This document shows, in pieces, positions 5,731 to 55,386 of a DNA stretch of 64,000 bases (the stretch's first letter is position 1; the number at the start of each line of letters is the position of its first letter). The stretch is from Dictyostelium firmibasis. Taxonomy: Eukaryota; Evosea; Eumycetozoa; Dictyosteliales; Dictyosteliaceae. Made by a program: the position numbers and the translations under genes. The notes beneath the pieces were generated by a model. The model was given only the letters and a program-made list of their open reading frames with translations. It was not told the origin of the DNA and searched no databases. The stretch spans positions 4,920,001-4,984,000 of the forward strand of contig CM069766.1 in assembly GCA_036169595.1 (NCBI GenBank), in the 5' to 3' direction.

Positions 5731-5757
5731 GTTAAAGGGCTATAAATTTCTACGCCC

Positions 5758-6428: not shown

Positions 6429-6458
6429 GTACCTAAGATTATATCTATAAAATATAGC

Positions 6459-33580: not shown

Positions 33581-33603
33581 AGGGTGCCAATTATTTGGCA
33601 CCC
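33579..33603 (-). terminator. Intrinsic terminator
   Basis: On the minus strand a 10-bp stem (AGGGTGCCAA, a short loop, TTGGCACCCT) is followed by a short T-run. It overlaps the end of the 33591-34110 gene. Part of the T-run comes from the junction with amoeba DNA. Confidence 0.65.
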
Positions 33604-34110
33604 TCTATTTCTACTGGGACCGAATCTACCTCTCGAAGAGATCGAAGAAGATTCAAAAACAGGGGATTTAGTATCGACTCTTTTGAAATATTCCGAGCGC
33701 CTTTAGAAAAACCATCACTCAATGGACTAAAGATAAGAAAAGAGAATTTTCCATGTTTCTCTTTCTCAATCTGACAGAAAAGAGAATGATTTTTCCCGCC
33801 ACCAACGAACAAGCATTTTTTTGATTTATCGAGCTGTGTGGAAATCTCTTTTTCAAATGTTTCGATAGAAGCTGCTTCAAGGTCTATCATACTGCTGAAC
33901 AGACAATCTATCTCTTTCCAATTTTGATCTTCTACATCAGCCTTCTCTTTGATATAGGATCGAATAGCATTACGGTAGGGCAGGGAACCATCAGCCATCT
34001 TCTTAAAGAGGCTGTTTTTTGATAAATGAATCGCCTAAAAGGGCGGTAATTTGATCGCGAGAATAGAGAGATATCGTATCGCTTGGCTTGAGGGGATTAC
34101 TTGAGACCAT
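33591..34110 (-). pseudogene. Unknown chlamydia-like cytosolic protein, one frame change
   Basis: The likely start is at 34110 (MVSSNPLKPSDTISLYSRDQ), running to about 34005, where the frame changes. A second frame (33998-33591) continues with KKMADGSLPYRNAIRSYIKEKAD and ends in VEIEGAK. The combined length would be about 172 residues, charged, with no membrane segment. I do not recognise the family. A terminator follows directly. Confidence 0.5.
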
Positions 34111-34210
34111 ACATGCTACTCTCTTTTATATTAAATTTCCCTCATTATAAATTATTGACCCCTATTTTTCGATACACTTAAAAACTATTTTAAAATAATT
34201 AGAAATAAGA

Positions 34211-34253
34211 AAGGCCCTTTTCTTACGACTATTGTTCGTAAAAAAAGAGCCTT
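34211..34253 (-). terminator. Intrinsic terminator after the porin gene
   Basis: AAGGCTCTTTTTTTACGA pairs with TCGTAAGAAAAGGGCCTT with only two mismatches over 18 positions, around a short loop. It lies just downstream of the porin stop on the minus strand. It could also serve the gene on the other side. Confidence 0.6.
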
Positions 34254-34275
34254 AAATCCTAGGTTCTAGAGAGAT

Positions 34276-35570
34276 CTAGAACGCAAAGAGAGCGCTCAAG
34301 AAGAATTCGCTGGAATGGTATTTTCCGCCAATTTTCTTCGATGCATGGGAGATGTTCTGATAGTATGCATTCAACGTGAGGTTGTCAGTCAATGCATAGA
34401 AGCCGTCCATTTTATACCCTTTGTAGTTTGCGTACCCACCATCATTCTTATTATCTTTGCCCTTCTTTTTTTTACGAAGATATAATGATTGCTTACGAGG
34501 AGTGTCCCTTCCCATCATAGAGATATCTCTTTCAGAGATCGCTTGAGCTCCAACGTAATGGTATGCAATATCCACTGCATAGTCGCCTTTTTTAGCAAAG
34601 CTTCCTAGCTGGCAACCTAAATAGAACGCATTTGCTGCTTTATGGTGCACATATGTATTCTTTTTAGTGTCATGATTTCGCAATAGAGCTCCATACAGCT
34701 GTGTCTTTACAGGAAGGAGATCTTCACTGACATTATATACTGCAGTAAGTTGAGAGTTGATAAAGCGCGTGCCAATTGCATGCCCCTTACCGTATCGATT
34801 GCGGCCCTTTTTATCCCAATTGATAAGAGAGTATTTCACATCAAGGCCTAGATCGGCGATGTTTAAAAAGCTCGCTTCTCCAACAAATCCGTAGTGATTT
34901 ACCGATGAATCGACCACAAACGCGCCAAGTTGACCTTGGAAATCGGAAATACCTTCGATATTTGCAGAGTACTTTGCAAGGATACCATCAAAGATACTGT
35001 TAAATTGCATTTTTGAATCGAAATTGTCATAGAGTCTCTGTCTACCAATTTCAACATCAAAGCGAGTTGTTCCCTGCTCCCAGACATTATAGCCCATGAA
35101 TGCTTTGCGAAGTGCTAATTTATTGGTACTTCCACTGCCATTCATGAAGTCGCGATTATGAAGCTCTTTACGCTTAAAAGAAACTTCAGAGAGGCCGCCT
35201 GAATTTGCCATCTGAAGACGTACAACACCAAAGGTGCGGTCGACTTCATACTTAAAAGTCAAATTCGCTTCGATGTTAAATTCACTATCGTCTCTTTCCC
35301 TTTATCTGCATCGGTTGGTTTTTTACAGGTCGAAGAGCCTCGTCGATTTTTTTTCCTCGATCGAGTATGAATATTGGCCCATTCTGTGCGAACATCGCCA
35401 CTTATTCTCAGATCACCACTCTTTTCTTTCAGCTTCTCAGCGCTTTTTGATTCGATATAGTCCGATACAGCTTGAAAGTCGCGATTACCGGCAGTCGTTC
35501 CCTCAGCTACAGAGAGCGATTCAAAGCTCCCAAAGTGCATGGAAGCAGAAACTTCAACAGTTTCATTCAT
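34276..35570 (-). pseudogene. Chlamydia-type outer-membrane porin, one frame change
   Basis: The start at 35570 has GGAG 7 bases before ATG. The N-terminal frame gives a helical stretch, then SGDLRISGDVRTEWANIH, a strand opening typical of porins of environmental chlamydiae. Near 35290 the frame changes. The 328-codon barrel follows (NLTFKYEVDRTFGVVRLQ, repeated amphipathic strands) and ends in FFLSALFAF with the terminal Phe needed for outer-membrane insertion. No signal peptide is evident at the chosen start, so a longer upstream start is possible. The lone frame change suggests a decayed copy or a sequencing error. Confidence 0.65.
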
Positions 35571-35748
35571 TTTCTCCAATTAGAGTTATACAGTTTGTTT
35601 GGCTCGTCTTTTACTGCCAATAATCAATTGAAGTAAAGAACCTAATTCTCACTCTTGATTAAACTTTTGGCTACATTTATAATTTTTTACTCTATTTTTG
35701 TACATAAAAAGGGCTTATACAGTCGATAAAACGCTCTTTTATCAACTT

Positions 35749-36342
35749 TCAGGTTTTATATTGCGATCTATCGACATAAATTCCCCATGTCTTCGATCGA
35801 TCACTTCCATTAAACCACCTCTTCCAGTGTGGAATTGGCCGCCCTTGAGTTCCAAGAAATGAGACAGCCCAAAATTCAATTTGGCATGTGACGGGGGAGA
35901 CTAAAAAGGCAAAGTAGTCCTTCACCCAATTAGTTTCGGCTACAATAACCGGCTCTGGAAAGAGCGCCTGCTTTGATCGTAAAAATGAGATTGCAGCCCT
36001 TAATAGACCCTCTGACTGCTCACCACCCCTCTCAAAAAGATGGGAAAGAGCAGAAATAAACAGGCGCCTCATTTCAGATGAGGAGAAAACAGGGAGTGCC
36101 ATTTTTCGCCGAACAGCTGAAATGGCATCTAGGATGCGCTCTTTTGAAACCATAAGCCCCATCTCTTTAGAAACAGATTGAAGACCCTCTTCTATAATTC
36201 TTAAAGCCATTTGATCCGATTGATAGGGGAAATTTTCGTAGATTTTTTGCTCAAACAGACCCGATTGAAAGATATTTGCCCCATATTTCTTAAGTTCTGG
36301 ATCCTTGCGGCACGCCTCCTTGACTGCATTTGCAAAATCAAA
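35749..36342 (-). pseudogene. 3' part of large chlamydia-like protein gene, cut by DIRS
   Basis: The frame is open from the DIRS junction at 36342 (DFANAVKEACRKDPELKKYG) to the stop at 35749, with no start of its own at the left. The product is helical and charged with a Trp-rich end (FWAVSFLGTQGRPIPHWKRW). The 5' part of the same gene is at 49186-51061. The junction bases on the two sides, with the four-base AATT shared with the DIRS ends counted once, keep the frame. Function unknown. Confidence 0.7.
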
Positions 36343-37658
36343 AATTAAAAATTTAAATAATTAAATTATATTTTATATTAAATATATATATTTAAATTTA
36401 TGAATATATTTATTTATTTGAAATTCCCAAATATTTAAGATAATTTTCAGAGAAATTCAAGAGAATTTTCTGGAGATATTTTAGCTCGAAAAAATTATTG
36501 AAAAAATGAAAAATTTCGAGTTTGAAAAAAGTTGCCACGTGTCACGCACCTATTTTTTTGAGTTTTGAGAAATTTTTCAGAAAGTAAAAACAGTATAAAT
36601 AGTGGCACTAAATATTGAAAACAATTTGATTTATATGGAATTCCGACTAAGGGAGGGCGGGTTGGGACCAATTTAAATATATATATTTAATATAAAATAT
36701 AATTTAATTATTTAAATTTTTAATTTATATTATCATATATATATTTAAATTTATGAAAGTTGGACTACATTATTTAAGAAACCACCAGATTTTTCACCAA
36801 TGATTTTCTTGTCATAAAAGTTATCAACTGTATCATTTGATTTCCAACGACCGAGTTTCTTGACCACATGGAATGGAACATTACTGGACAACAAGAGAGA
36901 AGCCATAGCGGAACGAGTAGAGTGAGATTTGAACTTTGTAATATCAATACCTGATTTTGAGAGTATTGATAAAACTATAGAGTTTATATATTCGACTGAA
37001 ACTGGACTACCATCACGGAGAATGAATACTGAATCACCAGAAGAAGCAGTTCTTCTTTGCTCAGAGTGTTTGAGGTATCTTGAAAGATGGAGAACTGGAC
37101 AAATACTTGCATTGGATTCATCTAATGAAGTTAATTCTAGAATTGAAATATCAGCATTCTTTGTATTCCTTTGTTCTTTTGCATTGATAACAGGAGCTTT
37201 AATTGAGTGTTCAGTGATTATTAAATTCTTGTAAGACCATTTGATCAAGTCAGATGATCTTGCTAAACCAAACATTTTACAAAGAACAAAAGTCTTATGT
37301 AGAAGAACAGAGTATGTAAACTTTGGATAAACGTTGATTGTAGATAAGTATTTGAAAACTTGATTTGCATTCCAGATTTCATTATACTTTGAGTTACTCG
37401 GACGTAACTTGTGAATACCAGTCATTATTCTTGATATGAACGGATCATTAACGATTTCAGATTGATTTCTAAGAATGAGCAACTGATTGAGGTGTTTACA
37501 GTAAATTGTAGAAATCAAATTCAAAAATTAAGTACGGTGTACTTTCACAGATTTAAATTTAATTTTTGTAAAACATATCAAATTTTCGACGAAAACTCTT
37601 TTAAATTAAAATAAACTTTAAAAGGAATAAAAAAATAATATAATTTTAAAAAATATAT

Positions 37659-39097
37659 TCATTTATTGTTTCTTAAATTAAAATTGATTTGTTCAATATG
37701 GAATATCATTATTAAACAGTACGAAAGGAAGTTTGGTTGATGAATTCCTCTTTGTTTTACTATTCCCCATCTATTCTTCATATCTGCAAACTTGTTCTCT
37801 ACCAATGACCGTTTACCAGCTTGGAAATGATGGAATCTTGATTCCACAACTTTTCTTTCTTGATTGGAAAGTATTTCGTCACCTTTACCAAGAAGATTTT
37901 TGATTCTCTTTGGTGTATAAAACAAGGTACCGTTGTAAGCAGGGTCTGCAAGTACTGAAAACTCTTCTCCGTTTTTTATAAAAGAGTAAATTAGATCATT
38001 AAGACCAGTTAACATTGACATACCTGAATCATTATTATGACCTTTACCAATGATCGCAGAATCGATTGTACCATTTTCATCGACAAGTATTTGAATTGTA
38101 AAAGAGTGATACTTTAAGTCGCCTCTGTACCATTCGAATTGATATGGATGCACTCGATTGATTCTAAAATCGGTACAATCGACATAATGTAAACAGTTTA
38201 AGTTCATTAACTCCAACGAGATGGTATAAAGACATGGTATCATAAGTGGAATAAGTGCACGTACAGCTCTTGAAATAGTAGCACTACTAATACTAAAGAT
38301 TCTCTTTAACAATGAGGTCGAATTTGGTCCTTTCTAAATTATTTGACAAAAATATTTAATATTCTAATATAATAGTAATCTAAAACTTATTTTTAATATG
38401 TACAGACCTTCAAAAAAAACAATACTAACAACACTTTCAATCTTGAATCTAACAAACATTTAAACGCTTTGACTGAGTTTCTACACAATCTAACAATTTC
38501 ATCAACGAGATCTATTGGTAAACCTAATTCATTGTAAACATCTACTTGATTGTAATGAGTTGGATATAAATCTTTAAATATTCTAACAGTTTTACGAGAT
38601 TGGTTTTTATTTAATGGAGTTGGAACAAATGTATCGTTTCTATATCTCTTTTTAATTGTTCTTTCCAATCTATTACTATTAATATAGTTATGTCTAATAA
38701 TTTTCTTTTGTTGAACATCATTATTTTCATTCAGTTGATTCAAAATCCTGAATGGATCATTGTTGAATATGTTTGTATTCGAGTTAAGTTTTTTAATTAT
38801 AATACTCTTTATTAAGTTGATTTTGGAAATTGTTGCTATAATCATCTTTATTACTACAATAGTTTCCACATCATCGTTATCGAATTGATTTGTATTTAAA
38901 AAATCTTTTACAATTGTTTCAAATCGATTTCGTTCGAATGTTTCTAACATGTTTTTATTAAAACCATCATCTAAAATTTCCCAAGTAGATTCATTAAAAC
39001 TATATCCTTCCCATTTTATAAAGTATTCTATCGAACCATCTATAATTCTTTTATCTAAAATTTCTTCAACATTATATCGATAATTGTTACTATCCAT
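37659..39097 (-). CDS. Harbinger-like DDE transposase with N-terminal chromodomain
   Basis: Two exons (39097-38408 and 38333-37659) join in frame to 454 codons plus a stop, with a GT-AG intron of 74 bases. Residues 7-60 form a chromodomain (YNVEEILDKRIIDGSIEYFIKWEGYSFNES...W) with the aromatic residues that cage methyl-lysine. The C-terminal part is a HARBI1-type nuclease: Asp in VDCTDF, Asp in LADPAYNG, Glu in VENKFADMKNRW. No break is seen. It would excise and insert the element in the nucleus, probably together with the divergent Myb-like protein. The chromodomain could guide insertion to H3K9-methylated DIRS chromatin (inference). Confidence 0.8.
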
Positions 39098-39616
39098 TTG
39101 AGTTAACTTTATATCAATTAAATAATTGTTATTTATAGGAATTATAGTTTATAAGTTTATATAATATTTATAGTTTATAGGTTTTTAATTATATTATTTA
39201 ATGTGAATAGAAAATTAATGTGAAACAATTATTTTCACGCAAGTGGTATAAAAAAATAATAAATTTAATTAAATTTAATTACTTTTTAACACTAACCCAC
39301 ACGTGGTAAAAATTATTGAAAATAAATTGAAAAAAATAAATAATTTAATTTAATTTAATTATTTACCCCTAATGTGGTTAAATTATATCGATAATTTACA
39401 ACAATTGACACGTGGCAATATTATTAATAAAATAAATTAATAAAAACACCCACATTTTTAATTTTAATTTTTATTTTTTATTATTTTTTATTTTTTATTT
39501 TTTAATATCTTTAATTTTTTAATTAGAAAACTACAATAAGTTACACAAAACAATTTAATTATTAAAAACAAAAACAAACATATATATTAAGTAATAACAT
39601 TCTTTTATTAAACACC
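39098..39616. promoter_or_regulatory. Divergent promoter region of the Harbinger-like element
   Basis: About 520 bases of T/A-rich sequence separate the two start codons. It includes a CACACGTGGTAA stretch (about 39299-39310) and long oligo(T) runs. It probably holds both promoters, but no single box can be assigned. Confidence 0.45.
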
Positions 39617-40692
39617 ATGGGTATGAATTACTAAAATAAAAATAATATAGTTTACAAATTGTTTTATTAACAAAATGTGTTTTAATAGATTTTAGAAATC
39701 TAAAAAAATATAAATTAGATAAATCAAACAATAACAATATTAATAAAAATAATATTAGTAATAACTATGAATCAACAGAATCAACAGAATCTAGTAGTGA
39801 AAATGAAGAATATAGTGATGATATTGCATTGTCAAACAATGAAAATGATGATTACAGTGATAATGATACTTTTAATGATAATGATAATAGGTTTGAAGAT
39901 ACTGATATCGAAAGTCAACAACAATCACTTGATTCTAGCGAGTCAGATAATGATTTAGATGACTCGGATTCCAGAGATATAGACTCAAACTCAAATGTTT
40001 GGAATTGGGAAACAACACATACATTCTTGACATTTTATTTAAAGAATTTAAGAAACCCGAATATCAATTCATTATCAAACAAAAGTGTAATGCAATTAAC
40101 CGTTTCCGACTATAATAAAAAGTATAAAACCAATCTCAGTGTCAAACAAGCTTTGTCGTACTTATCAAATCTCAGAGGCGTTAATTCAAAATTGAAAAAA
40201 CCATTCACTCGTCCAAAGAGATTCACAAGTCATCACATCAATAAATATGGTTCCAAACATAATTTCAGTTTATATCTTGATACTTGTGAAAACTATTTTA
40301 ACAAATCTTCTAAATTGTTGGAATTAATAGAGAAAGAATTAAGAAGTTCTCAAGTAATTGGTGATACCGAATCAAGATTAAATTCTTCCCAAATCTCTGA
40401 TGATATTGCTTCTCAACAACAGAATAGAACAAATGTAAGAAGAGATCGTTATTCAACTTTAACAAATATCTTTCAAGATGAAAAATCATTCAGAGGGAAA
40501 GTATGCTCCAGACTTGAAAAACAAGAACAGATCGAAAGAGAAAAGTTAGATCATCAAATTAAACAAGATAGTGTTAATAACTCTTTAAACTCTAGATTAA
40601 TAACACAACTAGAAAGATCAAGTAACCAATTAGAAGTGTTGTCTGAAATATTGATTCAACTATTAAAAAATAAAACCAATCCCAATAAATAA
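39617..40692 (+). CDS. Myb/SANT-like DNA-binding protein of the Harbinger-like element
   Basis: Best model: a 4-base first exon ATGG (39617-39620), a GT-AG intron (39621-39688) and an exon 39689-40692, giving 335 residues beginning MDFRNLKKYKLDK. After a Ser/Asp/Asn-rich acidic region (to about residue 100) comes a tri-helical Trp-bearing segment (NVWNWETTHTFLTFYLKNLR ... VKQALSYLSNLR) like the Myb/SANT-like partner proteins of Harbinger transposons. A charged coiled-coil-like C-terminus follows (QEQIEREKLDHQIKQD). The partner normally binds element ends and brings the transposase to DNA. The tiny first exon is inferred, and a start further in is possible. Confidence 0.6.
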
Positions 40693-43600
40693 AAATTAAA
40701 TCTTTTCATTTATAAATTATAAAAAAAGTATTCATTTTTTAAGGCTTATGTTTTTTACAAAAATTAAATTTAAATCTGTGAAAGTATACACATCTTAAGT
40801 TTTGAAATTGTAATTTAATATTTAAATTTAAGTAAGTGAAAACACCTCATTAAGCATTGAATGATGACTGTTAATTGTTGAATAAGCCAACGGAGGTTGT
40901 AGCTTGAATAAATAGGTCAAATAGTCCAAAAAAACTACCAGAGTAATCTTTGATGGATCCAAACGATTTAAAATACAAAAGAAATGGAACTTTGAGTAGT
41001 TTGAATCATAGACCTTTAAGGTTGATGGCTGCCAAGAGTTCATAAACAAATTCGAAGTACTCGATTTACTTGTTTTAATTATTGACTTTACATGAGATTG
41101 GAAAGTCGAATAATCCCCAGTTTCCATCGTTGCTGAATTTGAATTGGTATTGACTCTATCGATTCTTTTGTCAATACTTCTTGAAACGTACCCAGTACTT
41201 GAGGAAACAGATGGCGATGATGACGAGGAACTTGAGCTTGAATCATCGGATACCAAGTTGCTGATCTCCATATCGGGAAGATCAGTATTATAGAAACCAT
41301 CTTCGAACTCAATAAGTTCATCTTCTCCATCACAGAAGGCAAAAGTATTGGAGGTGGGAACGCCAGACATTGATTCCACTGACTCCAATCGAGTTGTAGA
41401 GCATTCATTTTCATTGTTGAGTAATTGATTGTTTGATGGTTGAAGTGTGAAGCAAACAGATCCATTTGAATTTGACCGAATTGAAGTTGAATTCGATTGA
41501 ACACTTCTTTCTTGAGTTGCCAGTTGTAACTCTTGATCGTCTTGGATGATTTGTGATTCATCTCTGATAGACGACTGAGGTGATCGGCTTTGACATTGAA
41601 GAATCCTGGAATGTGTTCCCCGATCAGATTGATTTTCTTCTTGAGACATTGTTTCCAGAGTTGTTCGAAGAGAATCGATAGATCTTGAATCTGACCACCT
41701 TGGCGATTGACATACGAGAGAGTCGTTGTGTTGTCGGTTTGAATCTTTAGATTGCAGTTGTTCAACTTCCGACACAGAGTTTGAAATGCCATTAGTAGAG
41801 CGAGCATTTCTCGACGGTTCGATGACATGTTTGATTGGACTTCTGACCACTGGAACGACCAAGTTTTGATGAGTTTGTTGTCTTTCATTAAAGTTGCACC
41901 TGCACCTGATTCTGATGCATCTGTTGTTAGAACATAATCGTAACTTGGAAACAGACTTATTTCTTTTCCATTCCATTGGTTTAAGAGAGTTAACCAATTT
42001 GAAATTTCTTTCTTGACATCTTGAGAAATTGGAAATGATTGATCCCAATTTCCATTTGCTAGTTTCAGACTTTGACAATGAAACTTGTTTGTTTGACGAG
42101 TGTACAAACGGAATGGTATTACTGCATCTTTCAATGCAATAAGTTTTCCTTTTAAACCAGCTAACTTTCTTAGAGTACAAGTTTCGAGTTTTAGAAAGTT
42201 CCTGATATCTTTGATGATACTCTTCTTCTTTTCTTTTGGAACAAGTAGCTTCATTGATATTGAATCGATTTGTAATCCTAGAAACGTTATTGATTGAGTT
42301 GGCTCGAGAACACTCTTTTCTAGATTTAACTTGAATCCGAGTTTGACTAACAGATTCATTGTTTGGTTGAGGTTGTTTAAACATTCTTCTTTTGTTGAAC
42401 CAACGATTAGAAGATCGTCTAAGTAGGCGATTACGGAAATGTTGATATCTCTTAGCATTCGAAGTACTGGTCTCATTAACATTGTAAAGATTCGAGGAGC
42501 TGACGATAACCCGAATGGCATTGTTCTCCATCTGTAATGAGTTCCTTTCCAAACGAATCGGAATAAATCTCGATAACTTTCGTCGACTAAAACATGGAGA
42601 TAAGCTTTCTTGATATCGAGTTTTACCATGTAGTAACCTTGTTTTACCATTGAAGACAGATTCTTTAGACCTTCCATCTTGAATGATTGATTTTTGATAA
42701 AAAGGTTTAACCTCTTTAGATCTAGTACTGGACGATGTAAATTCGTTCCAGCTTTTGGAACCGTAAACACGTTGGAGTAAAAAACGAGTTGGGAGTGACG
42801 GTTTGGAAGTACCTGTTCTATTGCATTGTCCTTTAATAAATCTTGTACTTCGTTTGTGATGCAATCTGATTTCGGACCCTCTGGAATTGAAATCGGAATT
42901 GGGTTCAGCATCGGTTTGAAGTTTGAAAGTAGTGGAACCTTTAATCCGTTTACTACTTCTTGACAAAAGTTTGGAAGACCCAATTCTTTCCAAACTTGTT
43001 TGAAGTGGACGAGACGTCCACCTACTGGTAAGTTTACTTCTTGTTCTTCTGAAAACGATAATTGGTACCGTTTCCAGACTTGGTATTGCTGCTACCTGAT
43101 GCAGCATTACTTTGGGATCCATTGAAGTTATTGGATCGGCCATTACTCCCACTACTGGACTTGTTATTCGAACTACTACTTCCAGTAGTGTTATTACCAC
43201 CTGTGTTGGTTGATTTCTTAAAGTTTGACTTTGATTGATTGTTAACTTTTAACAATGATTGTTTGGCTTCATTGTTCTTTCTGATTGACTTTGCTAACTT
43301 TCTTACACGTTCAGATTCGGTATCATCAAACATCTTTGGAGTGTCTTTGATCTTGATTGGTTGAACCACTTCAGAACCGTAGATTTCTTTTGAGATGTTG
43401 TTACGACGAACACGAGCTAATGTTGCTTGAGCACTAACAACTAATTGGATGGACGAGTCAGCTAAGTAACCTAAGAGTTCGGTATTGATATCAGTTTTAT
43501 CGGATGATATCATACTTGAAAGTAAAAGTATTGGTTTCAATATATCATTGATTCTCTTTTCGACAATGTACAAGTCAGTATCATTGTTCTTGAGATTCGA

Positions 43601-44497
43601 TGAAGCAGATATACCTTCTGGAGTACCGAATGGAGCTACATTCACTTGGAAGTTAGATGGAAAGCAAAAGATTTTGTTAACATCAGCGATTTCGTTCTTC
43701 TTAAGGATACATTTTTCTTCAACCAACAAACCTTGATTATTGATTAAATGTTTGTAGTTAGCAAGCAATGATTCTGATAGTTGATAATCAGTTGGAACAT
43801 CGACTGGATCGATAGATTCATCATCACCTTGTTCATTCTCAGTTTCAGATTCATCATTAGAACGTTGATTATCAGAGTTACCGTACGACTCTCTGATTGG
43901 CTCTTTCATATATCTGGTAAAAGCTAATGAGAGATTGGAGATTTGATCCTCAAGTGATTTCATTCTAGTTTCATAAGAATTAGAATTATTTTCGGTAGAG
44001 CTACTAGCGTGGTTATTATTATCGGTGGTAGACATTATTTTATTGATATCTAAAATTATTTTTATAGAGATAGAGAAAAAGTATTAAATTTATATTATCA
44101 TATATATATTTAAATTTATGAATACATTTATTTATTTGAAATTCCCAAATATTTAAGATAATTTTCAGAGAAATTAAAGAGATTTTCTGGAGATATTTTA
44201 GCTCGAAAAAATTATTGAAAAAATGAAAAATTTCGAGTTTGAAAAAAGTTGCCACGTGTCACGCACCTATTTTTTTGAGTTTTGAGAAATTTTGAAGAAA
44301 GTAAAAAACAGTATAAATAGTGGCACTAAACATTGAAAACAATTTGATTTATTTTATTTGGGAATTCCTCCTATATATATTTAAGATACACACACATAAT
44401 TTATACAAATAATTAAAAAAAAAAAAAAAAAATTCTTTTATTAATTTAATACTTTTTATCTATCTCTATAAAAATAATTTTAGATATCAATAAAATA

Positions 44498-45499
44498 ATG
44501 TCTACCACCGATAATAATAACCACGCTAGCAGCTCTACCGAAAATAATTCTAATTCTTATGAAACTAGAATGAAATCACTTGAGGATCAAATCTCCAATC
44601 TCTCATTAGCTTTTACCAGATATATGAAAGAGCCAATCAGAGAGTCATACCGTAACTCTGATAATCAACGTTCTAATGATGAATCTGAAACTGAGAATGA
44701 ACAAGGTGATGATGAATCTATCGATCCAGTCGATGTTCCAACTGATTATCAACTATCAGAGTCATTACTTGCTAACTACAAACATTTAATCAATAATCAA
44801 GGTTTGTTAGTTGAAGAAAAATGTATCCTTAAGAAGAACGAAATCGCTGATGTTAACAAGATCTTTTGCTTTCCATCTAACTTCCAAGTGAATGTAGCTC
44901 CATTCGGTACTCCAGAAGGTATATCTGCTTCATCGAATCTCAAGAATAATGATACCGACTTGTACATTGTGGAAAAGAGAATCAATGATATTTTGAAACC
45001 AATACTTTTACTTTCAAGTATGATATCATCCGATAAAACTGATATCGATACCGAACTCTTAGGTTACTTAGCTGACTCGTCAATTCAATTAGTTGTTAGT
45101 GCTCAAGCAACATTAGCTCGTGTTCGTCGTAACAACATCTCAAAAGAAATCTACGGTTCCGAAGTGGTTCAACCAATCAAGATCAAAGACACTCCAAAGA
45201 TGTTTGATGATACCGAATCTGAACGTGTAAGAAAGTTAGCAAAGTCAATCAGAAAGAACAATGAAGCCAAACAATCATTGTTAAAAGTTAACAATCAATC
45301 AAAGTCAAACTTTAAGAAATCAACCAATACAGGTGGTAATAACACTACTGGAAGTAGTAGTTCGAATAACAAGTCCAGTAGTGGGAGTAATGGCCGATCC
45401 AATAACTTCAATGGATCCCAAAGTAATGCTGCATCAGGTAGCAGCAATACCAAGTCTGGAAACGGTACCAATTATCGTTTTCAGAAGAACAAGAAGTAA
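44498..45499 (+). CDS. DIRS-I ORF1, gag-like protein (copy h)
   Basis: 333 residues, nearly identical to the copy d protein: Ser/Asn-rich start, acidic stretch, conserved core, and a basic Gly/Ser/Asn-rich tail. An oligo(A) run and a TATA box precede it in the left repeat. Confidence 0.8.
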   Translation: MSTTDNNNHASSSTENNSNSYETRMKSLEDQISNLSLAFTRYMKEPIRESYRNSDNQRSNDESETENEQGDDESIDPVDVPTDYQLSESLLANYKHLINNQGLLVEEKCILKKNEIADVNKIFCFPSNFQVNVAPFGTPEGISASSNLKNNDTDLYIVEKRINDILKPILLLSSMISSDKTDIDTELLGYLADSSIQLVVSAQATLARVRRNNISKEIYGSEVVQPIKIKDTPKMFDDTESERVRKLAKSIRKNNEAKQSLLKVNNQSKSNFKKSTNTGGNNTTGSSSSNNKSSSGSNGRSNNFNGSQSNAASGSSNTKSGNGTNYRFQKNKK

Positions 45500-48419
45500 A
45501 CTTACCAGTAGGTGGACGTCTCGTCCACTTCAAACAAGTTTGGAAAGAATTGGGTCTTCCAAACTTTTGTCAAGAAGTAGTAAACGGATTAAAGGTTCCG
45601 CTACTTCCAAACTTCAAACCGATGCTGAACCCAATTCCGATTTCAATTCCAGAGGGTCCGAAATCAGATTGTATCACAAACGAAGTACAAGATTTATTAA
45701 AAGACAATGCAATAGAACAAGTACTTCCAAACCGTCACTCCCAACTCGTTTTTTACTCCAACGTGTTTACGGTTCCAAAAGCTGGAACGAATTTACATCG
45801 TCCAGTACTAGATCTAAAAAGGTTAAACCTTTTTATCAAAAATCAATCATTCAAGATGGAAGGTCTAAAGAATCTGTCTTCAATGGTAAAGCAAGGTTAC
45901 TACATGGTAAAACTCGATATCAAGAAAGCTTATCTCCATGTATTAGTCGACGAAAGTTATCGAGATTTATTCCGATTCGTTTGGAATGGAACTCATTACA
46001 GATGGAGAACAATGCCATTCGGGTTATCGTCAGCTCCTCGAATCTTTACAATGTTAATGAGACCAGTACTCCGAATGCTAAGAGATATCAACATTTCCGT
46101 AATCGCCTACTTAGACGATCTTCTAATCGTTGGTTCAACAAAGGAAGAATGTTTAAACAACCTCAACCAAACAATGAATCTGTTAGTCAAACTCGGATTC
46201 AAGTTAAATCTAGAAAAGAGTGTCCTCGAGCCAACTCAATCAATAACGTTTCTAGGATTACAAATCGATTCAATATCAATGAAGTTACTTGTTCCAAAAG
46301 AAAAGAAGAAGAGTATCATCAAAGATATCAGGAACTTTCTAAAACTCGAAACTTGTACTCTAAGAAAGTTAGCTGGTTTAAAAGGAAAACTGATTGCATT
46401 GAAAGATGCAGTAATACCATTCCGCTTGTACACTCGTCAAACAAACAAGTTTCATTGTCAAAGTCTGAAACTAGCAAATGGAAATTGGGATCAATCATTT
46501 CCAATTTCTCAAGATGTCAAGAAAGAAATTTCAAATTGGTTAACTCTCTTAAACCAATGGAATGGAAAAGAAATAAGTCTGTTTCCAAGTTACGATTATG
46601 TTCTAACAACAGATGCATCAGAATCAGGTGCAGGTGCAACTTTAATGAAAGACAACAAACTCATCAAAACTTGGTCGTTCCAGTGGTCAGAAGTCCAATC
46701 AAACATGTCATCGAACCGTCGAGAAATGCTTGCTCTACTAATGGCATTTCAAACTCTATGTCGGAAGTTGAACAACTGCAATCTAAAGATTCAAACCGAC
46801 AACACAACAACTCTCTCGTATGTCAATCGCCAAGGTGGTCAGATTCAAGATCTATCGATTCTCTTCGAACAACTTTGGAAACAATGTCTCAAGAAGAAAA
46901 TCAATCTGATCGGGGAACACATTCCAGGATTCTTCAATGTCAAAGCCGATCACCTCAGTCGTCTATCAGAGGTGAATCACAAATCATCCAAGAAGATCAA
47001 GAGTTACAACTGGCAACTCAAGAAAGAAGTGTTCAATCGAATTCAACTTCAATTCGGTCAAATTCAAATGGATCTATTTGCTTCACACTTCAACCATCAA
47101 ACAATCAATTACTCAACCATGAAAACGAATGCTCTACAACTCGATTGGAGTCAGTGGAATCAATGTCTGGCGTTCCCTCCTCCAATACTTTTGCCTTCTG
47201 TGATGGAGAAGATGAACTTATTGAGTTCGAAGATGGTTTCTATAATACTGATCTTCCCGATTTGGAGATCAGCAACTTGGTATCCGATGATTCAAGCTCA
47301 AGTTCCTCGTCATCATCGCCATCTGTTTCCTCAAATACTGGGTACGTTTCAAGAAGTATTGACAAAAGAATCGATAGAGTCAATACCAATTCAAATTCAG
47401 CAACGATGGAAACTGGGGATTATTCGACTTTCCAATCTCATGTAAAGTCAATACTTAAAACAAGTAAATCGAGTACTTCGAATTTGTTTATGAACTCTTG
47501 GCAGCCATCAACCTTAAAGGTCTATGATTCAAACTACTCAAAGTTCCACTTCTTTTGTATTTTAAATCGTTTGGACCCATCAAAGATTACTCTGGTAGTT
47601 TTTATGGACTATTTGACCTATTTATTCAAGTTACAACCTCCGTTGGCTTATTCAACAATAAACAGTCATCGTTCAATGCTTAATCAGTTGCTCATTCTTA
47701 GAAATCAATCTGAAATAGTTAATGATCCATTCATATCAAGAATAATGACTGGTATTCACAAGTTACGTCCGAGTAACTCAAAGTATAATGAAATCTGGAA
47801 TGCAAATCAAGTTTTCAAATACTTATCTACAATCAACGTTTATCCAAAGTTTACATACTCTGTTCTTCTACATAAGACTTTTGTTCTTTGTAAAATGTTT
47901 GGTTTAGCAAGATCATCTGATTTGGTCAAATGGTCTTACAAGAATTTAATAATCACTGAACACTCAATTAAAGCTCCTGTTATCAATGCAAAAGAACAAA
48001 GGAATACAAAGAATGCTGATATATCAATTCTAGAATTAACTTCATTAGATGAATCAAATGCAAGTATTTGTCCAGTTCTCCATCTTTCAAGATACCTCAA
48101 ACACTCTGAACAAAGAAGAACTGTTTCATCTGGTGACTCGGTATTCATTCTCCGTGATGGTAATCCAGTTTCAGTCGAATATATAAACTCTATAGTTTTA
48201 TCAATACTTTCAAAATCAGGTATTGATATTACAAAGTTCAAATCTCACTCTACTCGTTCCGCTATGGCTTCTCTCTTGTTATCCAGCAATGTTCCATTCC
48301 ATGTGGTCAAGAAACTCGGTCGTTGGAAATCAAATGATACAGTTGATAACTTTTATGACAAGAAAATCATTGGTGAAAAATCTGGTGGTTTCTTAAATAA
48401 TGTAGTCCAACTTTCATAA
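45333..48419 (+). CDS. DIRS-I tyrosine recombinase frame (copy h)
   Basis: The C-terminal third carries HSTR, GRWKS and the FYDK Tyr. The upstream part overlaps the polymerase frame and the real start is uncertain. Confidence 0.75.
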   Translation: MVITLLEVVVRITSPVVGVMADPITSMDPKVMLHQVAAIPSLETVPIIVFRRTRSKLTSRWTSRPLQTSLERIGSSKLLSRSSKRIKGSATSKLQTDAEPNSDFNSRGSEIRLYHKRSTRFIKRQCNRTSTSKPSLPTRFLLQRVYGSKSWNEFTSSSTRSKKVKPFYQKSIIQDGRSKESVFNGKARLLHGKTRYQESLSPCISRRKLSRFIPIRLEWNSLQMENNAIRVIVSSSNLYNVNETSTPNAKRYQHFRNRLLRRSSNRWFNKGRMFKQPQPNNESVSQTRIQVKSRKECPRANSINNVSRITNRFNINEVTCSKRKEEEYHQRYQELSKTRNLYSKKVSWFKRKTDCIERCSNTIPLVHSSNKQVSLSKSETSKWKLGSIISNFSRCQERNFKLVNSLKPMEWKRNKSVSKLRLCSNNRCIRIRCRCNFNERQQTHQNLVVPVVRSPIKHVIEPSRNACSTNGISNSMSEVEQLQSKDSNRQHNNSLVCQSPRWSDSRSIDSLRTTLETMSQEENQSDRGTHSRILQCQSRSPQSSIRGESQIIQEDQELQLATQERSVQSNSTSIRSNSNGSICFTLQPSNNQLLNHENECSTTRLESVESMSGVPSSNTFAFCDGEDELIEFEDGFYNTDLPDLEISNLVSDDSSSSSSSSSPSVSSNTGYVSRSIDKRIDRVNTNSNSATMETGDYSTFQSHVKSILKTSKSSTSNLFMNSWQPSTLKVYDSNYSKFHFFCILNRLDPSKITLVVFMDYLTYLFKLQPPLAYSTINSHRSMLNQLLILRNQSEIVNDPFISRIMTGIHKLRPSNSKYNEIWNANQVFKYLSTINVYPKFTYSVLLHKTFVLCKMFGLARSSDLVKWSYKNLIITEHSIKAPVINAKEQRNTKNADISILELTSLDESNASICPVLHLSRYLKHSEQRRTVSSGDSVFILRDGNPVSVEYINSIVLSILSKSGIDITKFKSHSTRSAMASLLLSSNVPFHVVKKLGRWKSNDTVDNFYDKKIIGEKSGGFLNNVVQLS
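45550..47445 (+). CDS. DIRS-I RT / RNase H / methyltransferase-like frame (copy h)
   Basis: Same length and modules as in copy d: YxDD (AYLDDLL), an RNase H opening with DASESGAGA, and the PPPILLP methyltransferase-like motif. The frame overlaps the recombinase frame, as the family does. Confidence 0.8.
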   Translation: MGLPNFCQEVVNGLKVPLLPNFKPMLNPIPISIPEGPKSDCITNEVQDLLKDNAIEQVLPNRHSQLVFYSNVFTVPKAGTNLHRPVLDLKRLNLFIKNQSFKMEGLKNLSSMVKQGYYMVKLDIKKAYLHVLVDESYRDLFRFVWNGTHYRWRTMPFGLSSAPRIFTMLMRPVLRMLRDINISVIAYLDDLLIVGSTKEECLNNLNQTMNLLVKLGFKLNLEKSVLEPTQSITFLGLQIDSISMKLLVPKEKKKSIIKDIRNFLKLETCTLRKLAGLKGKLIALKDAVIPFRLYTRQTNKFHCQSLKLANGNWDQSFPISQDVKKEISNWLTLLNQWNGKEISLFPSYDYVLTTDASESGAGATLMKDNKLIKTWSFQWSEVQSNMSSNRREMLALLMAFQTLCRKLNNCNLKIQTDNTTTLSYVNRQGGQIQDLSILFEQLWKQCLKKKINLIGEHIPGFFNVKADHLSRLSEVNHKSSKKIKSYNWQLKKEVFNRIQLQFGQIQMDLFASHFNHQTINYSTMKTNALQLDWSQWNQCLAFPPPILLPSVMEKMNLLSSKMVSIILIFPIWRSATWYPMIQAQVPRHHRHLFPQILGTFQEVLTKESIESIPIQIQQRWKLGIIRLSNLM

Positions 48420-49185
48420 ATTTAAATATATATATGATAATATAAATTAAAAATTTAAATAATTAAATTATATTTTATATTAAATATATATATTTAAATT
48501 GGTCCCAACCCGCCCTCCCTTAGTCGGAATTCCATATAAATCAAATTGTTTTCAATGTTTAGTGCCACTATTTATACTGTTTTTTACTTTCTTCAAAATT
48601 TCTCAAAACTCAAAAAAATAGGTGCGTGACACGTGGCAACTTTTTTCAAACTCGAAATTTTTCATTTTTTCAATAATTTTTTCGAGCTAAAATATCTCCA
48701 GAAAATCTCTTTAATTTCTCTGAAAATTATCTTAAATATTTGGGAATTTCAAATAAATAAATGTATTCATAAATTTAAATATATATATTTAATATAAAAT
48801 ATAATTTAATTATTTAAATTTTTAATTAATAAAAGAATTTTTTTTTTTTTTTTTTTTAATTATTTGTATAAATTATGTGTGTGTATCTTAAATATATATA
48901 GGAGGAATTCCCAAATAAAATAAATCAAATTGTTTTCAATATTTAGTGCCACTATTTATACTGTTTTTACTTTCTTCAAAATTTCTCAAAACTCAAAAAA
49001 ATAGGTGCGTGACACGTGGCAACTTTTTTCAAACTCGAAATTTTTCATTTTTTCAATAATTTTTTCGAGCTAAAATATCTCCAGAAAATTCTCTTAAATT
49101 TCTCTGAAAATTATCTTAAATATTTGGGAATTTCAAATAAATAAATATATTCATAAATTTAAATATATATATGATAATATAAATT

Positions 49186-51061
49186 CGACAAAAAGGGGCA
49201 ATCTCCAACTCAAAGATCTCTTTAGCTCTCTTTTGCATCTCTATTGGAAAGATATGGACAATGTCCATTATAGCTCTTTGAAGAACTTCAGGGGTGATAA
49301 GTGTGCTCTTTAATATCTCATGTGCTGGATCTCGAACTGTATTGTAGATCCAAGAGTAGCTATATGTTTCAGAGGTCCACCCCTCATAAAAAAGTGATTT
49401 AAATGGGAGAACGCGGAAGGCGTGAGTCGGTGAATGCATAAAGAGAGAACCATTTAACTCATCTCCCAGTTTTGGAAAAAAGGCCCCTTTTTTTGCCTGT
49501 TATAGCTTAGCCGTGTCGTATCAATAAAGAATGCGAAGAGTTCAGTCTCATTCTCTACCCATCGAAAGACTACTTCAAGCGGCTTTTCCAGTTTAAAATA
49601 GGAGGAGACAAGGCTGTCCATAGAGCCACCTGAAGTAAATACCCACGGCTTTTTTTCCAATCGATGGAGATTATCGAGTATATTTTTTACAGGAGCCAGG
49701 CCATGAGCCACCTGTGTTCTATTGAGGACCGACTCCTGAAAATAGGGCGAACGAATATGGGTAATAAGATGCGTTATAATGAGGCGAAATTCACTCTCAA
49801 TATCTTTTATATAGGGATCAAATGCTAAATCCTGCTCTGTTAATGAGAAGAAAGAGCCAAGTGCATCGATATACTCATCTAAAGAGGAGATGGAATTCCA
49901 CAAGGAGGTTTCTTCTTCCATGCTTATAGATAAGGCGAAACCCAGCTGGAGAATCATCATATGGTCCAACATCGTGAAGATCTGGATCATACACCTCCTG
50001 AAAATACTCTTTTAAGAGAGCGTCATACTTATCTATTAAAAATTGATGTAGACCGGCAATTTTTTTTGCCTTGGCACTCATCATATCAACCAGCTTTTTG
50101 AAGATGGTGCTGCTCGGCCTTTCGAAATCGATACTCCATCGTCATCCAAGCCAGATCCTGTTCAGATGTAGCTTGTCGAGATCTCTGCTCTAAAAAGATG
50201 ATCTCTGAATTCATCGCATCAAATTTTTCGCGAATCTTTTCAATCTCTCTATTTGTCTGTTGCGCATTATTATAGAGAATCTGCCCAATACCGCCCTCAT
50301 CATCCCAGTTGATGCCAAGACTTGCATAAAAATTCCATCGACAGAGATCAAACTTCACCTCGGCATATGAGGCGATAGTAAACTCCCACGATTTTAAAAG
50401 AGCGCACTCCCCTTTCATTTTAAGGTGCCGTTTTGCATCGGAAGCACTCCCTTTTTTTTGCGCCTCTTTAGGAATGAGTTTTTGAAAAAGAAGCTCTATG
50501 ATCTCATCATAGGAGAGCAAAGCCGCTTCAGCATCTACAGAATTTACTATAGTTTTGATAATCTGCTCTTGAGAAAAATTGAGCCCTATTTCATTGAGAG
50601 AGATATAAAGAAGAGGAGAAAGGGCGATTGAATCGCCCTTTTTTGAGAGATTAAAGCCTATTTTTTTCTTTAATTCACCTCCTCCCCAACTAGAGCTCAT
50701 AGGAGCTGTATATTCCGATCCTTGAACTGTCTTTCGGAGCATTCCCATCGAAAGAAGAGCTTCGATATCTTTTAAAAACTGAAGAGGATCCTCCTCTTGA
50801 ATAAGAATAGCAGGAGCTGTGCCAAAACAGGATCCCAAGCTCTGACGAACTTTTGTTAAAAGAGAGATGACAACTGCAATTTTTGTGTCTAAGTCGGTAA
50901 TCTGTTGCTCTTTTGCTATCTCTAAAGTATCTCGAATGATCTCCTCAGCACGCCTATTAGCGTAGGGCTTTGTAATCCGTTTAATGATCTCCTTAGCCTC
51001 TTTTGACTCCTTAAGAAAAGAGAGAGATCGCCTGAGGTGCTCAACTCGATCAATCGACTCC
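49186..51061 (-). pseudogene. 5' part of large chlamydia-like protein gene, at least three frame changes
   Basis: The frame enters from the LTR border at 51061 without a start (QESIDRVEHLRRSLSFLKESKEAKEII) and runs to 50086. The reading then passes through frames near 50080-49900, 49990-49454 and 49439-49186, so I count three frame changes, several near homopolymers. The product is a long helical cytosolic-type protein with coiled-coil stretches (NREIEKIREKFDAMNSEI) and GSCFGTAPAI. It continues at 36342-35749 on the other side of the DIRS insertion. It resembles large conserved chlamydial proteins of unknown function; I cannot name it. Confidence 0.65.
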
Positions 51062-51443
51062 TGTTGGGGTTTCCCCTCGTTTACTTATTCTAACTATATA
51101 ACTACTAACGCTGTAACTGTATGTCCACTAACTAACTCTATATTATAATCATACAATCTACATCCTAATTTCTATCTAATTTTATTTATATAATTAAAAC
51201 AAATAAATATAAAAATTCTTACAATAAAGGTAAAGTTTCAGTGTGGGAAAAAACTAGCGTAATGATTTATTTTAAAAAATTATAAAAACATCTTCGACTT
51301 TTTCGAAGAGAAAAAAAATAACAAAATTTCGACAATTGTAAAAATTTAATTTAATTTTTACGAACTTCGTCTTGAGAACATTATTTCATTATTTTGTGTC
51401 TTGAGTTACTATTTCTTTTAATAAAACTAGTTAAACTCTAACA
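51062..51443 (+). repeat. 5' LTR of the Skipper-like element
   Basis: 382 bases, starting TGTTGGGG and ending TCTAACA. The left border is the chlamydia-like gene. The LTR is nearly identical to 26227-26606. Confidence 0.85.
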
Positions 51444-51955
51444 CCTTCCCCTCCCCTCTGAAGGAGATTATGGGCTTTAGAATCTACTTGGTGGTTTACT
51501 TTTTCTACCACTCTTTGTGACTTTACTTTTAACAACTTCCGATTCTCCTCCTTTATTATTAACTCTTTTCCTTCCAGCTTTGGATTTATTGAAATTCTCT
51601 GGAATCTCTGGAGCTCTTGGAGAAATACGCCAACAACTACATGTGATGTCTTACCAGTCTATTCTGCCCTCTGTATGAGTCATTGGCACAACCAGCATTA
51701 AGAAAAATAAAAAGATTGATGCAAGAGACTATGTATTTATTTTTATTTTTTTGAAAAAAAGAAAATAAAAATAAATATGTAAGGATATATCTGCTCAATG
51801 AATAAAAATTCTTTAAATGTGATAGCCTATTAATTGTTGTATAGTGTTGTTATAAAATGTTAATTCTTTGAAAAAAAAAATAATAATAAAATAATTAAGA
51901 TAAAATATTAATTAATAATTTTAGTCTTTAAATTAATTTTACTATTATAAAAAAT

Positions 51956-52993
51956 ATGTCAAAAAAAGCAAATAATTCAAAGAACACAACAACAACAACA
52001 ACATCACCTACAAAAATAGTTGATAACTCTCGAATAGTAGAGAATCCGGAGTTATTCCAAACTCATTCGGATAGTGAAGCATCAGATGCTATCACTGTTA
52101 GTCAACTAGCCAAGATGGTGAAAGACCTCGAGAGAAAATTGGCGGAGAAGGCTAATGAAATGGAGAAGTTTAAAGATAACTCCAGAAGAATAATGGATAG
52201 TAAGACTGTTGAAAGTGTTAAAACCGCAGCTAATGGAGAGATACAATATCAAAGATTTGTAGATTTCTGCCCATTATTTAATATAAAGCCTAATCTTAGC
52301 GAATTTTTGAGAAATGGTTGTGCCAATGACAAAACCGCACCACACCTAGATTGCTACGACAAAGAGGTGGAGGGTGAGGAGTTGAAAAGTATATTAAGAA
52401 GAGTGCACAAGGCACACAAAGAGGCCGAGAGAGCGAGTGACCTCCCAGTCATTATCATGGATCTGGTTGAAGCCGTCACTAACTCCCAAAAGATTAACAG
52501 TTCATTTGAGACTGATAAGAACCTTGATAGAGTGTACAACTTTATTAATATCTACAGTCCACCTCACTACAATGGTAAAACAGTAGAGGAGAAATTTAAT
52601 AAGGACTGTGAGAACAAGGTCAAAATCTGCAAAGAGATGCTGATTGCTTCAGTTCATCCACAATTCGCCTCTGAAGTTAGAGCACTAATCTCCAATGAAA
52701 AGTGTATCGACGCTTCGCGTAGCAAAATATCTGACTTCATTTTCAATAATGAAATAAGATTAAAAAGCTTTACTGGTAAGAGACAACGTGAAGAAAATAT
52801 CACAAGTCCAGGTAATACAAGGCTACAAAGCCCAAAACCAATCCAACCAGCCGAGAGAAAGGCGATGCTAGAAGGCATTAGAAAAAAGGTAGTGGTTGTG
52901 GTCCAAATGTTAATCTTACAACAATTAATGACAACATATTGTTGTTTAGAAGTAATAATAATGTATGTCTCAATTGTGGAAGAAATCATTTAG
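51956..52993 (+). CDS. Skipper-like gag region
   Basis: The frame begins MSKKANNSKNTTTTTTSP, has a coiled-coil-like segment (AKMVKDLERKLAEKANEMEK) and a helical capsid-like region. A nucleocapsid-type zinc-knuckle region lies at its end. The same start is found inverted at 25848. It belongs to a broken fossil element. Confidence 0.7.
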   Translation: MSKKANNSKNTTTTTTSPTKIVDNSRIVENPELFQTHSDSEASDAITVSQLAKMVKDLERKLAEKANEMEKFKDNSRRIMDSKTVESVKTAANGEIQYQRFVDFCPLFNIKPNLSEFLRNGCANDKTAPHLDCYDKEVEGEELKSILRRVHKAHKEAERASDLPVIIMDLVEAVTNSQKINSSFETDKNLDRVYNFINIYSPPHYNGKTVEEKFNKDCENKVKICKEMLIASVHPQFASEVRALISNEKCIDASRSKISDFIFNNEIRLKSFTGKRQREENITSPGNTRLQSPKPIQPAERKAMLEGIRKKVVVVVQMLILQQLMTTYCCLEVIIMYVSIVEEII

Positions 52994-53346
52994 TTAAAGA
53001 ATGTAGAGCTCAGTCGAGTAATGAAAAGGTTCAAATCGACAAGAGTCAAAGTCCATTCAAAAGAATGACCAAATGATGCCATGCCGATGATGGTGTAGAA
53101 AATAATAATAATAAAATAAATAAAAAATATTTTTTTCCAAACTATCATCACATAGAAGATCATGATCAATTAGATGATCATGACTCATTAAAAAAACTTG
53201 AAGACATTTATTTTAATTTAAAACATTCAAACAATGAAAGTGAGAATGATGATCCTAATAAAGGACAGAATAAAATAAAGAAGTTCCTTCAAAAAGTATA
53301 TGAGGTTAAACTAAAACACAATGAAGAGATTGAAATTCCTTCAAAG

Positions 53347-54812
53347 GTGAAGATAAAGAAACCCATAAAAATAATAAATAAAGAAATTGATAATAAAATT
53401 AAAGATAATAATAAAAATTATATTGTTAATTTATTTAATCAATTAAAAGAAACTAATTTCAACTTTGATTCCATAAAGAGAAAAGGGGAAGAAAAGGTTA
53501 AAGAAATTTATGAAATTAGATTTAACGAAAATAAAAAACCTTTAATTACAATGGTTGCTAATTCATCCATTGGTAATAAAGATATAATGATTCCTATTGT
53601 AAAAGGTATTATGATAGAGAACAAAAATAACATGAACAAACCACGTTTGATATTAGATCCAAAGAAGGTAAATGAAACCATAAAAGTGATCTTGGATACA
53701 GGTAGTAATATCAGTTTAATTAATAGAAAATTATTAACTGAGGAGATGAAATCAATGATTCACAACAGTAAAGATATTGTTGAATTTCCACTACTTGGTA
53801 TTAAAGAATCAAATGTGCAAGATGTTAATATACAGTTAGGAGATGACGTATATAAATTTATTGTAACTGATGTCGAAGTAGTTGATGTTTTAATTGGTAA
53901 TGATATTTTAAAAGAATCAATCATTGATCAACAAAAACAATTACTCATCCTTAACAATAGAAGGTATAGAATAACATACCAAAAATCAAAAGAGTATAAG
54001 TGTAATTTGAATACCGAAGAGGAAGAATACATTAACTCTAAATTCGAAGAAGATGAAGACATAAAAGATAAAGTAATAGAAATTGTCGAAAATCTTCCAT
54101 CAACAATTTGTGATATATTAGTAAAAACAAATCCTTCTGAGGAAGAGATTGAAATAATAACTAATTTTATCAGCGAAGAGTTTGAAGATGTGATAGTTGA
54201 GAAACTTCCAGAAATTTCTGATCAATTAAAGAAATCTAGAAGGAATAAAATTATTCACAATATTCTGATTAAAACAGGTATGGAAATAAAACCAGCAAAA
54301 AAGTTGATTTATTACACATCAGATGATCAGAAAAAGGTAGTAGAAGAGATGATTGAGAAATTTTTAGATCTAGGTATTATAACAAGATCAAAATCCAATT
54401 ATTCTTCTCCAATTATCCTCATCAGAGAGGAGAATAAATGGCGAATAGTTCATGATTATCGTAATTTAAATGAAGTAACAGTAAGAGATGAACATCCATT
54501 TACACCAGCAGATAATTTAATCAGTCAATGTAAAGATTCTAAATTGTTTTCTAAATTTGACATGATTATGGGATTCTTCCAAGTGATGTTAAATCCAAAA
54601 CATCAACAATATACGGCGTTTACAACCCACATTGGAAAATTCGAGTATCTTAGAATGCCGATGGGATTGGTAAATTCGCCTTCAACATTTGCTAGGCTTA
54701 TGGTTGAAACCTTTGGAAAAATTAAGAATCTACTACAATACTTTGATGATTTATTAATCCATACAAAGGAGAATTATAAAAAACATTTTATTGAAATAAT
54801 TAGAATGTTATT
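53347..54812 (+). CDS. Skipper-like pol region: protease and N-terminal reverse transcriptase
   Basis: Aspartic protease motif DTGSNISLI, then the reverse transcriptase fingers/palm (WRIVHDYRNLNEVT, FSKFDMIMGFFQV, YFDDLLIHT with the FxDD form). The sequence passes at about 54812 into DIRS-II recombinase sequence, so this is a remnant. Confidence 0.8.
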
Positions 54813-55386
54813 ATCTACTCGTTCCGCTATGGCCTCTCTGTTATTGTCTAACAATGTACCATTTCATGTCGTCAAGAAAATGGGTCGTTGGAAATCAAAT
54901 GAAACAATAGATACCTTTTATGATAAAAGAATTATTGGTGAAAAATCTGGTGGTTTCTTAAATACTGTAGTCAAACTTTCATAATATAAATATATATATG
55001 ATAATATAAATTAAAAATTTAATTCATTAAATTATATTTTATATTAAATATATATATTTATATTATCCCCAACCCACCCTCCCTAGTCGGAATTCAATAA
55101 ATCAAATTGTAAAAGTTTATGTGTGGTATTTATAATGAAATGCATTCGTCTGTAAAAATTTCAACAAAAAAAAAAAAAAAAAAAAAATTTTTATTTTTCC
55201 CCCACTTTTTGGCGCACTTATTTGCGCGGGAAATTTTAACACACCCCACACCACACTTTGCGCGAAATTTTTAAAAATTTAAAAATTATCTTAAATATTT
55301 GGGAATAATCAAATAAATAAATGTATTCATAATATAAATATATATATTTAATATAAAATATAATTTAATGAATTAAATTTTTAATT
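54813..55386 (+). mobile_element. DIRS-II fragment i: recombinase end and right terminal repeat
   Basis: The last part of a DIRS-II recombinase (to 54984), the internal complementary region and the right terminal repeat (to 55386). An incomplete fossil adjoining the Skipper-like element on the left and a DIRS-I piece on the right. Confidence 0.8.

Follow-up and report, generated by a model that had tools for sequence, protein, structure and literature searches.

Wolbachia inserts in arthropod genomes and organelle-derived numts are nuclear integrants. PMC3798261 names both under nuclear integrants of endosymbiont DNA. Like them, the locus reported here consists of multi-gene fragments in host chromosomes which are decaying and interrupted by host elements; it differs in that the donor is a chlamydia, the host a social amoeba, and the location DIRS-1 clusters on several contigs. 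The second closely related system is DIRS-1 itself, a retrotransposon of a class that amplifies through RNA copies, whose circular intermediates are believed to be integrated by the tyrosine recombinase (PMC5633606) and whose clusters act as centromeres in D. discoideum (PMC12324515). The elements described here share with D. discoideum DIRS-1 the inverted terminal repeats, the internal circle-junction repeat, insertion into DIRS-1, the reverse transcriptase/RNase H/methylase ORF and the tyrosine recombinase, whereas here one of the targets is bacterial and its unoccupied form has been sequenced at another place in this genome. Paraburkholderia, Amoebophilus and Chlamydiae are common guests of D. 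discoideum (PMC11114107), and transfer from symbiont to nucleus is a known kind of event; what is unusual in the present case is its location and the very clear order of events. Our search of the available open-access papers found no report of chlamydial DNA in chromosomes of D. firmibasis or of Dictyostelium, and the available text of PMC12324515, which deals with D. firmibasis and chlamydia, does not describe bacterial DNA in the amoeba chromosomes.

The window, by which we mean the whole stretch of 64,000 bases that was analysed, is C2:4920001-4984000 of a 31,455,843-base, 12-contig assembly (contigs are referred to as C1, C2 and so on) and sits within a DIRS-1 cluster of chromosome 2. The assembly of D. 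firmibasis TNS-C-14 was reported as 31.5 Mbp in 12 contigs, with DIRS1 at 4.5-4.8 Mbp of chromosome 1 and as large insertions at the ends of chromosomes 2, 3, 4 and 5; the main text of that report, in the part available, mentions neither chlamydiae nor contamination (PMC11193728). We consider it very probable that the locus as a whole is explained by a chlamydial integrant which lay in a DIRS-1 cluster, was copied, was interrupted by an LTR retroelement and was then hit by DIRS-1.

The chlamydial stretch and its donor

As read from the alignments, bases 33592-36342 and 49186-51062 of the window are a single stretch of chlamydial DNA, in which a conserved gene of ~980 aa is followed by a porin gene. 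The GC content of these parts is 0.40-0.41, against 0.30 for the window. The features of the stretch and its edges are:

33592..36342, minus strand: left chlamydial part, with the 3' part of the conserved gene, a porin pseudogene and a fragment of orfX
36342-35749, minus strand: 3' part of the conserved ~980-aa gene
about 35579-34276, minus strand: porin pseudogene, 91% identical to P0001
about 34034-33592, minus strand: fragment of a third gene ("orfX"); 391 bp of the C1 copy are absent near 34055
33583..33596, no strand: scar at the left edge, where GGTGCCAATTATTT precedes GGCACCC, beside a repeated transposon end
49186..51062, minus strand: right chlamydial part, holding the conserved gene's upstream portion, which is frameshifted and lacks 12 bp
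51063..54814 (far end putative), plus strand: LTR retroelement whose first bases are TGTTGGGGTTTCC, inserted at one and the same base in the C2 and C5 copies

The difference near 34055 was considered as an insertion in C5 and C1 and rejected, as base-level comparison found 391 bp to be missing in C2; the region absent from C2 holds a DIRS-1 of C5's own. The scar at 33583-33596 reads like fold-back filler (GGTGCC...GGCACC), of a kind that end repair by template copying might produce. None of seven pieces taken from the two flanks had a Pfam hit at E 0.1, and the window contained neither a tRNA nor an Rfam family at gathering score.

A comparison with chlamydial genomes, proposed in the original prediction as a check on the continuity of the gene, was run with a 303-aa piece, which matches 177 of 232 Chlamydiota genomes (E <= 0.01), many of the weaker matches being partial (only the last ~70 residues or so) and uninformative on the joint. 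All 20 best-scoring matches span the residue at the DIRS-1 site in one piece, none of them showing the non-adjacent halves that the original prediction had named as counter-evidence, and the open frames at these loci measure 978-1025 aa in 18 cases, the other two being one with a TAA and one of 633 aa. Among relatives of the intact ~980-aa protein, 119 of the 120 listed (278 found) match the 303-aa piece and all 119 cross the joint. NCBIfam has no family for an intact 980-aa relative (in L136), and a scan of genome contigs with a 289-aa piece confirmed no relatives among 48 candidate stretches.

The closest match of the porin ORF is P0001, at 91% identity, the next one standing at 63%; the C5-copy porin aligns to P0001 in a single frame over 427 residues (89% identical). 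P0001 is located on a contig of 1,543,817 bp, which perhaps belongs to a sequenced chlamydial symbiont of Dictyostelium. In a tree of 54 rows the C1 copy's ThrS fragment groups within the Chlamydiota clade (support 100/99), in which some rows are labelled with other phylum names, and its neighbour is Chlamydiales bacterium 38-26 (99/87). The bacterial donor is thus indicated by sequence and by phylogeny, and on these comparisons the donor phylum of the ~980-aa gene, the porin and thrS is Chlamydiota. Gene order agrees in part: the ~980-aa gene lies within 2 kb of thrS and runs away from it at 12 of 24 thrS loci (L032-L055), the porin following it in three of those 12 (L034, L042 and L044), and it was not found beside thrS at the other 12; at four of the 24 loci a porin is present with no match to the first piece of the gene. 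The window keeps the order of gene, then porin, and thrS stands beside the gene in C1 and C3.

The upstream limit of the gene had been placed at 51061 and has to be given up. In C2 and C5 the chlamydial DNA is cut after 51062 by the LTR retroelement, which reads TGTTGGGG... and carries a reverse transcriptase ORF at 53347-54984; in C1 and C3, where this site (51063) is empty, it runs on for a few more gene codons and then into thrS. Past this point C1 and C3 read WGGEE (WGCEQ in P0141, an ortholog of 1006 aa), and because the thrS start is reached at once thereafter, a deletion between gene and thrS is likely in these two copies.

The joint in the gene and the empty site on C5

The insert that separates the two chlamydial parts is composed as follows:

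36343..49185, no strand: composite insert in the chlamydial gene, 12,843 bp
36343..36346, no strand: AATT exchange core, left copy
36343..37488, minus strand: primary DIRS-1 (B), first part, colinear with the C5 element 4145480-4150188
37489..40848, minus strand: DDE transposon nested in B, with ends GAGGTGTTTAC and ACACCTC and a 3-bp duplication, ATT
40852..44090, minus strand: primary DIRS-1 (B), middle part
about 44091..48827, plus strand: second DIRS-1 (A), nested in B in opposite orientation, exchange at AATT
48828..49185, minus strand: primary DIRS-1 (B), last part, with terminal repeat
49182..49185, no strand: AATT exchange core, right copy

The coordinates 36343..49185 given in the original prediction proved exact when the junction bases were set against the C5 copy. 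The left junction reads AAAATCAAA-AATT-AAAAATTT with the core at 36343-36346, and the right junction reads ATATA-AATT-CGACAAAAAG with the core at 49182-49185, the right flank starting immediately after. At the same site the C5 copy reads AAAATCAAA-AATT-CGACAAAAAG, without this insert: in the alignment C5 4152652 is the counterpart of window 36342 and C5 4152657 that of window 49186, with AATT in between. The C5 stretch is ~99% identical to that of C2, with mismatches at 0/472 and 3/922 aligned bases in two parts of the ~980-aa gene, 9/1708 in the porin part and 4/464 in orfX. The empty site on C5 is decisive evidence for insertion into continuous chlamydial DNA.

It had also been predicted that the frame is kept at the joint if AATT is counted once (CGA ATT TTT GAT), and this is what the C5 copy and the ortholog bear out. 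An open frame of 303 aa on C5 (L003:892-1800, minus strand) spans the insertion site (...APFCRIFDFANAV...) and reads CRIFDFANAV through the joint, and P0141 is continuous across it: its residues 722-809 align to the right half and its residues 810-1004 to the left, so that the break falls between 809 and 810. The description "in frame" is correct for the joint and not for the gene overall, which was already frameshifted, two of the frameshifts being common to C5. The insert does interrupt the gene, and what had been called a DIRS cluster is one DIRS-1 with two nested insertions.

The primary DIRS-1 (B) measures about 4.74 kb and is colinear with the full element at C5 4145480-4150188. The DDE transposon within it has ORFs with DDE_Tnp_4 and chromodomain matches and a 3-bp target duplication, and we take it to be of the PIF/Harbinger type, for which a DDE_Tnp_4 transposase and a 3-bp target duplication are characteristic. 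In the second DIRS-1 (A) the ORF at 45333-48419 encodes a tyrosine recombinase domain (PF00589, E 9.7e-10), the ORF at 45550-47445 matches RVT_1 (E 1.8e-27), RT_RNaseH (E 2.1e-10) and Dam (E 1.8e-10), and a 333-aa ORF at 44498-45496, in the putative GAG position, has no Pfam match at E 0.001; inverted terminal repeats are present in DIRS-1. It should be noted that the assembly may be wrong in the interior of this 12.8-kb repeat.

The internal repeat of DIRS-1 has the sequence of the circle junction, GATAATAT-AAATT-AAAAATTT, and exact matches to the joined ends occur at window positions 16618, 20827, 36706, 48436 and 55461 and once in a further fetched stretch (L030). Three insertions have sequenced empty sites, with exchange cores AAATT in the ~980-aa gene, AAA in orfX (insertion in C5, empty site in C1) and AATT for DIRS-1 in DIRS-1; read base by base, all three are exchanges at a common core with no gain or loss. 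For the insertions in the gene and in orfX the lengths of the two junctions sum to target plus circle, which is a length check only. Within the fetched stretches AA precedes the non-internal left ends of DIRS-1 in 8/8 cases (18 exact matches, 10 of them internal), and AAA follows 11 of the 13 non-internal right ends (29 exact matches, less 15 internal and 1 abutting another DIRS-1 end), GAA following the remaining two, which represent one common junction. Such an AAATT exchange between target and circle junction would be as expected of a tyrosine recombinase.

Since that exchange is reversible in principle, DIRS-1 might have inserted before the C2 and C5 copies separated and then been lost from C5 by exact excision. 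We regard this as very unlikely: DIRS-1 is a retrotransposon, amplified via RNA copies (PMC5633606), the element would have had to leave without a trace, and the chlamydial orthologs are uninterrupted regardless. The reading we prefer remains an insertion into the C2 copy.

Copies and other bacterial DNA in the DIRS-1 clusters

The right flank (49200-51080) has six matching places on C1, C2, C3 and C5, and the left flank (33583-36342) has five on C1, C2 and C5; all copies, as well as a chlamydia-like piece on C6, lie in or near DIRS-1 clusters. The copies on C1, C2, C3 and C5 differ by 0 to 1.7% of aligned bases, in addition to private indels and frameshifts. On several contigs the bacterial DNA is, as assembled, contiguous with host elements on both sides, and host mobile elements are found within it at sites for which empty counterparts exist. 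C1 and C3 have in common a DIRS-1 junction at window 49675 which differs from that of C2.

These observations weigh against a misjoining of reads from a chlamydial symbiont or contaminant to DIRS-1 repeats during assembly, which is slightly less probable still than excision. The surroundings of the stretch are highly repetitive, and chlamydiae can be present in Dictyostelium isolates (PMC12324515; PMC11114107), but an artefact would leave unexplained that the copies differ, that host elements sit at the identical base in pairs of copies (C2/C5 and C1/C3), and that the two insertion ends meet at a single target site, intact on C5; moreover, PMC11193728 states that bacterial contigs were removed and that coverage by gDNA did not vary along the genome.

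The clusters contain further bacterial DNA: those of C1 hold dusB, sycD/lcrH-like and thrS pieces and those of C5 recB and aas/lplT-like pieces, the names dusB, sycD/lcrH, recB and aas/lplT being taken from family models and only thrS having a tree. The segment C5:4138600-4145479 (L012-L013) carries the recB-like and aas/lplT-like DNA by family models, with a putative recC-like frame between the two. Positions 34932-38168 of C6 are 96% identical to a portion of the C5 DNA that holds the aas/lplT-like piece; DIRS-1 copies were listed on C1, C2, C3, C4, C5, C6, C7 and C11 (40 scored of 100 candidates), and the nearest listed copy on C6 is ~37 kb from the aas/lplT-related piece. A SecA-like bacterial ORF lies inside a DIRS-1 cluster at C1:4604745-4606370 (L027), with no lengthy second copy found in the assembly. 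Eight of the 13 non-internal right ends of DIRS-1 abut bacterial DNA, in stretches that were chosen around bacterial DNA, so that sampling may explain this count.

Within the window, 5600-8455 (GC 0.39) is a second bacterial segment. It has a dCMP deaminase-like ORF, ankyrin repeats and a third ORF with a weak outer-membrane-barrel match just below the Pfam cut-off. The deaminase is 93% identical to EukProt entry P0192 and 86% to the next match; among the 120 matches listed (of 6297) five are named by organism, and 5/5 are Bacteroidota, as we take Cyclobacteriaceae and Pedobacter among them to be. The segment is thus Bacteroidota-like by its dCMP deaminase, and an origin from Amoebophilus would be a guess. 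No other copy of it was found in the assembly. A DIRS-1 right end adjoins it near 8464, and the best match being P0192 raises the possibility that another eukaryote data set holds similar bacterial DNA.

Order of events and meaning

Around residues 565-567 and 708-722 of P0141, C2 and C5 have the same frame changes, and one near residues 499-502 occurs in C2 only. The C5 copy alone has ~117 extra bases within the chlamydial gene, at C5:4153729-4153845; 12 bp are missing there from C2, and C3 has neither change. Private substitutions, polarised by majority rule and few in number, comprise 24 GC>AT and 14 AT>GC in 3563 columns (Fisher p 0.004 against site numbers), a bias in keeping with decay in an AT-rich host.

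Because the base of LTR insertion is common to C2 and C5 and the DIRS-1 is missing from C5, we infer that the LTR retroelement, a host event, inserted before these copies separated and DIRS-1 after. The ~980-aa gene was probably broken before DIRS-1 landed, and since C2 and C5 share the LTR insertion and two frameshifts, the DNA would by then already have been a nuclear pseudogene. The central claim of the original prediction, that the amoeba genome contained the bacterial DNA before the retroelement arrived, is accordingly upheld by the uninterrupted C5 copy, the LTR site common to C2 and C5 and the uninterrupted chlamydial orthologs. Least probable of all is a functional gene of bacterial origin, acquired in the distant past and recently broken by DIRS-1. 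The long single-frame match of the C5 porin to P0001 might point to this, but we give it little weight because of the two earlier frameshifts shared by C2 and C5; against it also stand the GC content, well above that of the window, and the pieces of other bacterial genes that came along.

On the preferred reading, that of a copied integrant later hit by DIRS-1, DNA of a chlamydia-like endosymbiont would have reached the amoeba nucleus in the form of a genomic fragment with several genes, come to rest in a DIRS-1 cluster and decayed there, presumably without function. By copying or rearrangement the fragment would then have spread among DIRS-1 clusters on several chromosomes, with the LTR retroelement interrupting it before the C2 and C5 copies separated. 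A circular DIRS-1 intermediate would next have entered the C2 copy through an exchange at AAATT catalysed by the tyrosine recombinase, with both flanks kept whole and in register, and the second DIRS-1 and the DDE transposon would have followed into that DIRS-1.

A broader and more tentative proposal, which we hold at somewhat short of even, is that the DIRS-1 clusters, centromeres in the genus, act as a sink for symbiont DNA, having received it from at least two unrelated donors (a chlamydia, and a member of the Bacteroidota, perhaps Amoebophilus-like), and that this DNA has been copied between the clusters of different chromosomes and is now part of centromeric chromatin.

The locus is a documented case of chlamydial DNA having moved into a social amoeba's nuclear genome. 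It carries an internal record of events, in that four copies of a single bacterial gene have element insertions, some common and some private, and its sequenced empty sites provide a base-level test of DIRS-1 integration. Because Dictyostelium is tractable and its chlamydial symbionts have been sequenced, the timing of the transfer, the route of entry and the spread between clusters are testable.
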